Assembly: GCF_900103485.1 (NCBI RefSeq)
Contig: NZ_FNHW01000001.1
Coordinates: forward strand, 965,418 to 1,029,417
Length of the DNA stretch: 64,000 bases
Direction: 5' to 3'
Source of the DNA: Fictibacillus solisalsi
Lineage (GTDB): Bacteria; Bacillota; Bacilli; Bacillales; Fictibacillaceae
The notes under the pieces are model-generated. The model was not told the origin of the DNA. It was given only the letters and a program-made list of their open reading frames with translations, and did no database searches. Position 1 is the first letter of the stretch, and every line of letters begins with the position of its first letter. Of this stretch, positions 6,901-9,276 are shown piece after piece. The translations under genes and the position numbers were made by a program.

Positions 6901-7524
6901 GAACTGGGTCTGGTCAACCTTGGAGCGATTGAAGAATATGAACGTGTGTCCCAGCGGTTTAATTTCCTTACAGAACAAAAACAGGATTTGGTAGAAGCAA
7001 AGGAAACCCTTCATGGGGTCATTGATGAAATGGACATCGAAATGAAAAAAAGGTTTGAAGAAACGTTTACCGGCATACGCTCTCACTTTGGGCAGATTTT
7101 CAAGGAGCTGTTCGGGGGAGGCAGAGCCGATCTTTCTCTAACCCACCCGGAAAATCTTCTGACAACAGGTGTGGATATTCTAGCCCAGCCTCCCGGAAAA
7201 AAACTGCAGCATCTTGCGTTGTTGTCAGGAGGAGAGCGGGCGCTGACAGCGATTGCCCTTTTGTTTGCCATCCTGAAAGTGCGTCCCGTCCCTTTTTGCA
7301 TTCTTGACGAAGTCGAGGCTGCACTTGACGATGCCAACGTTGGACGGTATGCCAGCTATTTAAGAACATTCAGCAAAGGAACGCAATTCATCGTGGTAAC
7401 CCACAGAAAGGGTACGATGGAAGAAGCGGATGTTCTGTACGGTGTGACCATGCAGGAATCCGGTGTATCCAAGCTGGTTTCAGTGAAACTTGAGGAATCA
7501 AAGGAACTTGTCGGTGCAAACTGA
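3958..7524 (+). CDS. smc: Chromosome condensation/segregation protein SMC
   Basis: SMC ATPase, which with ScpA/ScpB extrudes DNA loops and aligns replicated chromosome arms. The 1188 residues match the family's usual ~1186. N-terminal Walker A GPNGSGKSN is at 31-39; long coiled coils with very high Glu/Lys/Gln content run from ~170 to ~500 and ~680 to ~1000; between them is a hinge with the glycine-rich GDVVSAGGSMTGGS. The C-terminal head has the ABC signature LSGGERALTAIALL and the Walker B stretch CILDEVEAALDD. AAGGGGGATTAAG precedes the ATG. It is followed 30 bp later by ftsY. Confidence 0.98.
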   Translation: MFLKRLDVVGFKSFADRINIEFVPGVTAVVGPNGSGKSNISDAVRWVLGEQSAKSLRGSKMEDIIFAGSDNRKPLNVAEVTLTLDNEDQHLPLEYNEISVTRRVYRSGDSEYLLNKQQCRLKDIVDLFMDSGLGREAYSIIGQGKIEEILSSKAEDRRKIFEEAAGVLKYKTRKQKAEAKLQETQENLNRVEDILYELEGQVEPLEIQASIAKDFLEKKEELEQIEVALTVYEIEELHGKWEKQSKLVEELKTKDSALAAKVKNEEASLERMRSDIQALDESIDELQQSLLVASEELEKLEGKREVLKERKKNYHQNKESLKQQIQNFKKKKEELEHASAEGERLFGEQKKELRTLRNKLKEEESRLSVMELDLEAEIERLKSEYFEALNNSASIKNEMRYLTDQKSQQQFKSTRLDKEHEGYIEQRENVHTDKLSLLKQVKAAEAKISGHLEQYAKLKKQLEQKEKENEEKQNKLYQAYQFIQQFKSKKEWLESMQDEYQGFMQGVKEVLKAKSTLAGIEGAVAELISVPAEVETAIETALGGTMQHIVTQSEKDAVAAISFLKKKKYGRATFLPMSVIKGRYIQPSDLSLAASHPTFVGVASQLVAADSSYEKIIANLLGNILIAKTIEGANEIAKLIRYKYRIVTLEGDVVSAGGSMTGGSVRQKNSSLLGRQRELDQVTEKLEKMENQTVFAEAQVKESKAAILQLREQLDAFRQEGENSRLEEQSLKSKLREIEIEEKNLNDRLSLYDREKNSYHTEQNSIAERITELEASLEDNKKEAELLEQKIEELTIRKKDQQTSKEEIQQSATALKIKIAEKEQQTANQQEKLDRLRSELKAVTDQLEETDQDFWMLEEEMNSNSSGEEVLDGHIASKRQDKNAVLHLISQRRQERLELYQKSEDRDRELKESKRILKQLNDALRIEEVSINRLDVELDNRLTHLREEYELSFEGAKEKFALSIAADEARKKVKLIKLAIEELGLVNLGAIEEYERVSQRFNFLTEQKQDLVEAKETLHGVIDEMDIEMKKRFEETFTGIRSHFGQIFKELFGGGRADLSLTHPENLLTTGVDILAQPPGKKLQHLALLSGGERALTAIALLFAILKVRPVPFCILDEVEAALDDANVGRYASYLRTFSKGTQFIVVTHRKGTMEEADVLYGVTMQESGVSKLVSVKLEESKELVGAN

Positions 7525-7554: not shown

Positions 7555-8544
7555 ATGAGCTTCTTAAAACGACTAAAAGAAAAATTCACCACACAATCCG
7601 ATTCGGTATCTGAAAAATTCAAAAGCGGACTGGAAAAAACAAGAACTTCTTTTTCAACCCGGGTCAATGACCTGGTAAAACGCTACAGAAAAGTAGATGA
7701 GGAATTTTTTGAGGAGCTGGAGGAAATCTTGATTTCTGCCGATGTTGGTGTTCATACCGTTATGGAACTCATAGATCAGCTCAAAGATCTTTCCAGGACA
7801 AGAAACATCCAAAATACGGAGGATTTAAAATCGGCGATTTCCGAAACACTCGCCGGTATGCTCCATAAAGGTGATCAGGATGGTAAATTGAATCTGCAAA
7901 CTGAAGGGATGTCTGTCATCCTGTTTGTCGGTGTTAATGGTGTGGGGAAAACGACTACCATCGGCAAGCTCGCCCACCAGTTGAAGCAGGAAGGGAAATC
8001 GGTTCTGCTTGCAGCGGGGGATACATTTAGGGCGGGAGCGATCGAACAGCTAGAGGTCTGGGGGCAGCGTGCTGGTGTAGATGTAATCAAGCACCAGGAA
8101 GGTTCTGATCCGGCCGCGGTGATCTATGACAGCTTAAAGGCAGCAAAATCGAGAAATGCCGATGTACTTCTCTGTGATACGGCGGGAAGGCTGCAAAACA
8201 AAGTAAACCTCATGAACGAACTTGAAAAAGTAAAACGAGTCATCGAGCGTGAAGTGCCGGGAGCACCACATGAAGTCTTGCTTGTTGTGGATGCCACCAC
8301 TGGCCAAAATGCCATGAGCCAGGCGAAAACGTTCAGCCAGTCGACCAATGTAACAGGACTCGTCCTAACCAAGCTGGACGGAACGGCGAAGGGCGGAATT
8401 GTTCTTGGCATCCGGAACGAACTGGATATTCCCGTGAAATTTGTCGGCCTGGGAGAAAAAATTGATGACCTGCAGGCCTTTGATCCTGACCAATTTGTTT
8501 ACGGATTATTTTCCGGCCTGGAGGATGAAGAAAAAGCGGAGTAA
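7555..8544 (+). CDS. ftsY: Signal recognition particle receptor FtsY
   Basis: GTPase receptor that docks the SRP-ribosome complex to the membrane translocon. It has 329 residues and the NG-domain architecture: an N-terminal helical bundle, then G1 GVNGVGKTTT beginning at Gly126, DTAGR, and TKLDGTAKGG near the C-terminus. The acidic A-domain of enterobacterial FtsY is missing, as usual in Bacillus. AGGAGG precedes the ATG. Its stop codon falls inside the hairpin of its own terminator. Functionally paired with ffh located 0.75 kb downstream. Confidence 0.97.
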   Translation: MSFLKRLKEKFTTQSDSVSEKFKSGLEKTRTSFSTRVNDLVKRYRKVDEEFFEELEEILISADVGVHTVMELIDQLKDLSRTRNIQNTEDLKSAISETLAGMLHKGDQDGKLNLQTEGMSVILFVGVNGVGKTTTIGKLAHQLKQEGKSVLLAAGDTFRAGAIEQLEVWGQRAGVDVIKHQEGSDPAAVIYDSLKAAKSRNADVLLCDTAGRLQNKVNLMNELEKVKRVIEREVPGAPHEVLLVVDATTGQNAMSQAKTFSQSTNVTGLVLTKLDGTAKGGIVLGIRNELDIPVKFVGLGEKIDDLQAFDPDQFVYGLFSGLEDEEKAE

Positions 8545-8557
8545 TTCCGCTTTTTTT
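8531..8557 (+). terminator. Intrinsic terminator of smc-ftsY
   Basis: AAAAAGCGGA-GTAA-TTCCGCTTTTTTT is a compact stem with a 7-base T-run. The ftsY stop codon (8542-8544) lies in its loop, so ribosomes terminating there cover the hairpin. Confidence 0.9.
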
Positions 8558-8604
8558 ATTGTGACTGCACAAAATGAACCTAAATAAACCAATTTGTTAA
8601 GAGG

Positions 8605-8866
8605 CAACTTCGGCTTTTCGCAGTGATCCAGCTCCGGTGGCTAAAAGCTCTGTCGTTTCACTCTCTCACTACAACACAAAGAGCGTGTTGTTGTTCAGAG
8701 TTCCAACGTCTTTCGCTTTTGAACGGGCACCTCAGCTTTTCTTTGTGATCCAGCTTCGGCGCCCAGGGACTCGATCATTTCGGTCTTTGTCAGAAAACAA
8801 AAAGCGTTTTATGCCAAGGCCCTCCAATGCTTTTCGTCCCTGAACGGGCACCTCAGCTTTTCTTTG
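8605..8866. repeat. Two tandem ~121 bp structured repeats with compensatory changes, plus an upstream fragment
   Basis: Unit A is 8623-8744 and unit B 8745-8865. Both start with GTGATCCAGCT and end with GAACGGGCACCTCAGCTTTTC; bases 8605-8622 look like the end of a third, partial unit (ACTTCGGCTTTTC). The interiors differ but keep the same nested fold. Unit A stems: AAAAGC/GCTTTT (8643/8715), CGTT/AACG (8654/8705), ACTCT/AGAGT (8660/8697), CAACAC/GTGTTG (8672/8685). Unit B stems at the matching places: AGGGAC/GTCCCT (8765/8836), CATT/AATG (8776/8826), GGTCTT/AAGGCC (8782/8816), AAAAC/GTTTT (8794/8806). The terminal loops are AAAGAGC and AAAAAGC. No convincing gene lies in this 408 bp gap (8545-8952); a 68-codon open frame over the repeat has no ribosome binding site and is set aside. 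The repeat resembles multicopy intergenic palindromes of Bacillaceae, but that was not tested. Confidence 0.8.
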
Positions 8867-8882
8867 CTATCAAGAAAAAAAC

Positions 8883-8911
8883 TTGACATTGGGCATCGAT
8901 CAGTGTACTAT
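8883..8911 (+). promoter_or_regulatory. Sigma-A promoter for ylxM-ffh
   Basis: TTGACA (8883-8888), 17 bp spacer, TACTAT (8906-8911); an overlapping TATAAT at 8909-8914 would give a 20 bp spacer. It lies just after the second repeat unit and ~40 bp before ylxM. Confidence 0.75.
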
Positions 8912-8952
8912 AATTTAACGTAAAGGCTTTTCACTTAACAAGGGGTGTTGAA

Positions 8953-9276
8953 ATGCTGGATAAGACAACGAGAATTAATTATTTGTTTGACTTTTATCAG
9001 TCATTGCTGACCCCAAAGCAAAAGAATTACATGGCTCTTTATTATCTGGATGACTTTTCTCTTGGAGAAATCGCTGAACAATATAATGTAAGCCGCCAGG
9101 CCGTTTATGATAATATTAAACGGACAGAGGCGATGCTTGAAGAGTACGAGGAAAAGCTCGGTTTATTTGCGAAATTTCAGGAACGCGATCAGTTACTTTC
9201 CAGATTAAAAGAACTGCTCGGAAATTCGTCTGATAAAGTTCTTGAGATCATTGATCGCCTTGAAAACATGGAATAG
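8953..9276 (+). CDS. ylxM: SRP-associated helix-turn-helix protein YlxM
   Basis: Small (107-residue) UPF0122 protein encoded next to ffh in Firmicutes; related proteins in streptococci modulate SRP GTPase activity. The N-terminal half resembles sigma-factor region 4: [16 protein letters not shown] followed by the helix-turn-helix [22 protein letters not shown] (about residues 36-57). The C-terminal part is a charged helix. The start ATG follows AAGGGGTGTTGAA. The 14 bp gap to ffh implies co-transcription from the promoter at 8883. Confidence 0.93.

Follow-up and report, generated by a model that had tools for sequence, protein, structure and literature searches.

The tandem repeat between two genes of Fictibacillus solisalsi, which we take to be ftsY and ylxM, is probably a non-autonomous mobile element. 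It lies in the window, the whole stretch of 64,000 nucleotides analysed. Copies of the element are about 120-330 bp long and without coding sequence, with a folded strand, one fixed end and one variable end. A palindromic mobile element that needs its fold to be copied was among the readings of the preliminary description, and this reading is well supported by genome-wide copies, by empty sites in relatives and by three identical copies in one genome (G027). Structured and high in copy number, the repeat occurs in many genera related to Bacillus. With the empty-site pairs and the covariance model its mechanism becomes testable, including the spread of a folded single strand without a recognised transposase. 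The features of the array are listed below with their positions in the window; the gene names follow the preliminary description.

7555..8544, plus strand: open reading frame of the upstream gene, presumably ftsY
8531..8557, plus strand: terminator-like hairpin and T-tract of ftsY, read from the sequence by eye, directly adjoining the insertion
8557..8856, no strand: block missing in the close relative G021 (empty site), BLAST boundaries
8604..8622, minus strand: third unit, partial, limited to its first ~18 nt in the sense of the folded strand, read from the sequence
8622..8744, minus strand: unit 1, full-length copy, the folded strand having its 5' end at 8744
8744..8865, minus strand: unit 2, full-length copy, in tandem
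8883..8914, plus strand: putative promoter-like TTGACA and TATAAT with a spacing of 20 nt, downstream of the array, from the sequence
8953..9276, plus strand: open reading frame of the downstream gene, presumably ylxM, with a match in 34 of 34 family genomes

The covariance model R1 was built from 16 copies of the window's own genome (G000). It matched at G000:C4:974039-974161 and 974161-974282, in agreement with the placement of two units of about 121 bp given before. Unit 1 reached 122.5 bits (E 5e-30) and unit 2 119.9 bits (E 2.8e-29), each copy being itself among the 16 used to build the model. The partial third unit reported ahead of the array was found as well, and a partial unit closing arrays on the same side recurs in G024. 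The block missing in G021 consists of about 47 nt of non-unit spacer, the partial unit and both units; its edges are BLAST boundaries, so that the right one lies a few bases inside unit 2. No match over the gathering score was obtained in an Rfam 15 search of the window. Relaxed thresholds likewise gave no family for the element; BSnc120 and L20_leader matched weakly over the terminator hairpin of ftsY, which was judged to be chance. Group II intron RNA domains were not detected by cmscan in window positions 8500-8960 at E<=5. With blastn the array matched neither phage sequences nor any of 72,556 plasmid records, which should include B. cereus plasmids bearing bcr repeats.

The paired stem changes named in the preliminary description are visible in the sequence, with one G-T pair within the change GGTCTT/AAGGCC. 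Its claim that the stems are kept by compensatory change holds beyond the two units: in the 16 own-genome copies 22 of 34 pairs were doubly changed, compared to 12.1 in column shuffles, and none of 500 shuffles reached 22. In the alignment of own-genome copies (A1) 94.3% of the cells pair, and the covariation score was 0.466 vs 0.197 in shuffles. A larger alignment (A2; 70 rows, 66 distinct) showed double changes at 30 of 34 pairs, with 503 such cells vs 145.6 in shuffles; A2 leans toward the R1 fold, since it was fitted to R1. In slid controls the paired cells dropped to 31-46% for both alignments.

On either strand both units are more stably folded than their dinucleotide shuffles, most so on the minus strand, with z values of -2.98 (unit 1) and -2.77 (unit 2), compared to -2.25 and -1.89 on the plus strand. 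The relevant strand seems to be the minus one, which corrects an earlier reading. It was taken as relevant because its internal loops are purine-rich (GA/GA, GGA/GAA) and because departures from Watson-Crick pairing are more often G-T than A-C on this strand. The ratio G-T:A-C was 18:7 in A1 and 64:15 in A2, whose fit to the model tilts it in this direction; the loop-closing G-T pair was excluded from the count. The apical loops are GCTTTTT-like heptaloops across the copies. In some hosts, including Mesobacillus, longer copies of about 300-330 nt carry extra arms and have the same ends. Those at loci L356 and L416 possess a tail with TTTATACTTTCTTA, as in G027. The L416 copy (~6940-7268, minus strand, ~330 nt) contains an internally duplicated module (GACAAGCGCTGGAGGGCC...), which may be a sign of modular growth.

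Further copies were found with R1 in the window's own genome and across its family. The 4.80-Mb genome G000 gave 31 matches at E<=1 and 27 at E<=0.001. Of the 34 sampled family genomes 33 were matched, with counts from 1 to at least 104 per genome; up to 104 candidates were scored in each, so that the large counts are minima. G014 was the only one without an R1 match. Copy numbers were 27 in G000, 39 in G020, 13 in G021, 50 in G023 and 53 in G024, and G027 had the most copies. In an even sample of the phylum the broader model R2 matched at least 3 of 299 genomes under strict filters and with 11 candidates scored in each, namely G000 and two others from its order. Scanning named genomes with a pattern yielded at least 119 stretches. 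Hosts among the 80 matches listed were Mesobacillus, Neobacillus, Cytobacillus, Metabacillus, Pseudalkalibacillus, Planococcus, Planomicrobium, Lysinibacillus, Sporosarcina, Bacillus sp. and, under a title that may be wrong, a single Chryseobacterium record. Pseudalkalibacillus decolorationis DSM 14890 shares identical stretches with G027; NCBI places Pseudalkalibacillus in Fictibacillaceae, and the window's genome stands in the same family group. The copies are dispersed and lie mostly in intergenic DNA, where, by eye, they often adjoin a stop codon, a terminator or a ribosome-binding site.

Empty-site polymorphism among relatives, a consequence of the mobile reading, was present, and seven clean empty sites were read. 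At the window site in G021 the ftsY hairpin and T-tract continue straight toward the ylxM promoter region. The ftsY-ylxM gap holds four units in G020, two and a partial one in G023 and another repeat in G024; the gaps of G022 and G025 are without units by eye. The G024 repeat, located upstream of ylxM (L083), is a different, longer inverted repeat (GGAAAGCGAGCAGCCTG...), and sequence about 80% identical to it occurs elsewhere in G023 and G024. The comparison of 48 G024 sites with G023 revealed four that are cleanly empty in G023 (1658929, 2796683, 3348516 and 4195497). The rest were, five aside, shared, partly deleted or rearranged in G023. Partly deleted or rearranged sites were left out of the clean-empty count, e.g. 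82339, 691667, 737406, 926930, 1141945, 2376113, 3279863, 4275211 and 4351559, and so were five further sites (168128, 251077, 307098, 719789 and 2435212). Site 174739 of G023 is empty in G024. When 17 sites of G000 were set against G020 and G021, two were counted as cleanly empty in G021 (the window site and L020), and the remaining ones include shared and partly deleted sites. The L038 site was rejected as an empty site in G021, as an internal deletion with both ends kept. Internal deletions of the element were seen at several sites in the G023/G024 and G000/G021 comparisons.

At the seven clean empty sites no target duplication beyond 1 base was found, and 0-9 bp of the target were replaced. 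The fixed end of the element is nearly invariant and reads TAAGAAAAGC, or a close variant, on the folded minus strand. The other end varies and halts at GGAC, inside a tail of about 45 nt or inside the following unit. In G027 three loci hold copies that are identical over 126 bp and differ in their flanks. At site 4195497 the TAA of the element became the stop codon of the neighbour gene; the element reshapes intergenic DNA, may in this way supply a stop codon and places hairpins beside genes. We infer that the empty sites reflect gain and not precise loss. According to the proposed mechanism, the moving enzyme would recognise the folded minus strand, either as single-stranded DNA or as RNA. 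Copying or joining would begin at the fixed end and end variably at the other, and the enzyme would be supplied in trans. Tandem arrays may grow through insertion next to older copies together with slippage.

Regarding orientation, at 36 of 48 G024 sites the folded strand runs against the fork-codirectional one, a bias for which replication and gene direction are confounded; the terminus was set at 2.2 Mb, as judged from where GC skew changes between sites. Both neighbour genes read opposite to the folded strand at 28 of the 48. Among the 12 sites in the other orientation, three adjoin 23S rRNA in similar surroundings and are non-independent. The copies at L197, L198 and L199 (G024 sites 719789, 307098 and 168128) lie just past the putative end of 23S rRNA, in near-identical surroundings. 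A terminator-like hairpin is located within about 12 nt at five of the seven empty sites (by eye). Over the 48 G024 sites such adjacency was found 14 times, a weak excess over about 8.5 at orientation-matched random points, and targeting of terminators is not claimed as a general rule, this excess being too weak.

Profile searches for four families of mobility enzymes (Y1, reverse transcriptase, IS110 and TnpB) gave no match in G000. RAYT, reverse transcriptase, IS110 (PF02371) and TnpB (PF07282) were rejected as movers, since none is present throughout the copy-bearing genomes. The mover could have been lost from G000 after the insertions. For an autonomous version, loci from L320 on were searched for start and end motifs separated by more than 260 bp, and no element with a coding insert was found among 8 of the 10 candidates examined (L327 and L386 left out). 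The copies at L356, L416, L436 and L451 measure 295-328 nt between the motifs, the figure for L451 including a 56-bp insert.

Retroposition was considered as another explanation and appears unlikely. A plus-sense RNA would end at a U-rich, terminator-like end (GCUUUUCUUA) and be reverse-transcribed at the 3' end of the target, leaving a fixed plus-sense 3' end and a truncated 5' end; the plus-sense RNA would then end at GCTTTTCTTA. One fixed and one truncated end are known from SINE/LINE copies and from group IIC intron homing, and the fixed and the variable end described here, the missing target duplication and the hairpins near five of the seven empty sites agree with it. Moreover G027, the genome richest in copies, has nine RVT_1 matches. 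However, RVT_1 was not matched in G000, G020, G023 and G024, despite their 27, 39, 50 and 53 copies. The G-T bias and the internal loops point to the other strand as the folded one, and the adjacency to terminators over 48 sites is only weakly above random.

A REP-like element, on whose folded strand a Y1 (RAYT) transposase acts, is quite improbable. Y1 chemistry fits a folded strand and an orientation bias, and Y1 (PF01797) was matched in 31 of 34 family genomes. A RAYT-like Y1 gene of 191 aa occurs as a single copy in G023 and G024, the pair with most empty sites (L262:6305-6880 and L259:6167-6742). It sits between amidase-like and protease-like genes (by eye), and the element is absent from its flanks. 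In G029, by contrast, a real copy was detected about 400 bp upstream of a homologue of this gene, on one side only (L269:5191-5307; R1 E 0.0016, R2 E 2.5e-8). This copy was not taken as a RAYT association, because about 0.8 matches are expected by chance for eight such neighbourhoods (arithmetic from copy numbers). The REP-type transposase suggested in the preliminary description is disfavoured, since no Y1 match was obtained in G000, G020 and G021 with their 27, 39 and 13 copies, and 7 of 8 intact RAYT-like gene neighbourhoods were without element match even at E<=5. Gene loss after the insertions may account for the former. G014 has a Y1 match but no element, and the element is far bigger than REP. 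R1 gave no match at L261, where G027 has a broken Y1 remnant, and one 13-nt start motif lies 4.7 kb off.

It is very unlikely that the element is a MITE of an undetected DDE-type insertion sequence. A possible inverted repeat of about 9 nt, imperfect, is seen in full-tail copies and only in these (TAAGAAAAG / GTAAAGAAAG), and the tail end in G027 (TTTATACTTTCTTTAC) roughly inverts the fixed end. Against a MITE stand the seven empty sites without target duplication beyond 1 base, the variable tail end and the copies of GGATC type, which have no tail.

The fate of resident copies was examined with 19 of the 22 alignable copies common to G023 and G024; 2975316 (an outlier with 37 substitutions) and 2411489 and 3328308 (no single-unit alignment row) were left out. 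The element had diverged at 117 of 1963 bases (6.0%) vs 306 of 9603 (3.2%) for the intergenic flanks. Of the single changes at pairs 11 kept and 17 broke the pair, where a keeping fraction of 0.29 is expected without selection (p=0.30); among double changes three kept the pair and one broke it. With the outlier included, 11 pair-keeping single changes, 9 pair-keeping double changes and 23 broken pairs were counted. Stems were changed less than loops (4.3% vs 7.3%, p=0.005). Hence, weak selection in place is conceivable; the power of the 28 single changes is modest. It is mainly during copying that the fold seems to be important, since the common copies are without detectable upkeep of pairs and diverge faster than their flanks. 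Covariation among copies would then arise mostly from selection at copying, and the decay test, with its modest power, would set a mobile fold apart from a resident functional RNA. The functional folded RNA also proposed in the preliminary description is not favoured, as in common copies pairs are broken about as often as they would be if no selection acted. The least probable explanation is a host-functional structured RNA or transcript-stability element repeated by happenstance, for which the conserved fold and heptaloop, the frequent stop codons, terminators and ribosome-binding sites beside copies and the less changed stems speak, but against which stand the empty sites, 0 to at least 104 copies within one family, no excess of pair-keeping changes in common copies and internal deletions at several sites.

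A bolder proposal, rather improbable, is a new mode of non-autonomous mobility in bacteria. Purely structural elements of about 120-330 nt with modular arms would be copied from a fixed end via a folded single strand by a host enzyme outside the known transposases, possibly guided by pairing of the heptaloop with terminator T-tracts. Such copying might proceed through an RNA intermediate; the element would in that case be a bacterial counterpart of SINEs.

Among known systems, the RAYT-associated REP/REPIN are palindromic intergenic repeats with a folded strand. The element resembles them in being palindromic, intergenic and folded, but it is larger (120-330 nt) with several internal loops, and the copy-bearing G000, G020 and G021 are without Y1 match. 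BOX, RUP, Correia and other MITE-like repeats are likewise small and non-coding, with modular or inverted-repeat structure; the element differs by the absence of target duplication, by one variable end and by multi-arm versions of about 300-330 nt.

The bcr repeats of the Bacillus cereus group are described in two papers as intergenic sequences of 100-400 bp with many copies and mobile features, some of them structured (PMC6542083, PMC3446304). Compared by these descriptions, bcr1 and other bcr repeats are similar to the element in size, intergenic placement, copy number, structure and mobility. The mobility of bcr is tied to repetitions of the motif TTTAT (PMC6542083), whereas target duplication is absent here. 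By sequence the comparison is only indirect, through the absence of a match of the window array in the plasmid records. Bhal-1 of Bacillus halodurans, a 74-bp repeat with 36 copies (PMC2267715), is also a structured intergenic repeat in a bacillus and was compared by description alone. Bacillaceae-1 RNA (RF01690), tabulated in PMC2864571, is likewise a short structured sequence of Bacillaceae, but its model had no match in the window. Searches of an open-access library showed no description of the element, and six of its core strings occur in none of the papers there. The element is widespread, seems to have neither name nor Rfam model and appears undescribed.

In the copy at L451:890-1185 (minus strand) the 56-bp insert at 1092-1147 holds most of a Bacillaceae-1 match. 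This was the sole Rfam match inside a copy at the five loci with long copies, at which group II intron RNA domains were not detected at E<=0.5. The L451 insertion is clean when set against L356, which suggests that Bacillaceae-1 is itself mobile. A second repeat, starting with TAAAGAAAACTYGGC, has the start TAA(A)GAAAA in common with the element. It was located at L118:933, L120:953, L125:960 and 1046, L253:11010, L340:3459 and 3545, L394:6544 and L427:6508, and comes after the element at L118, L120 and L125 (G027). At L250 an insert similar to this second repeat lies inside a copy of the element.
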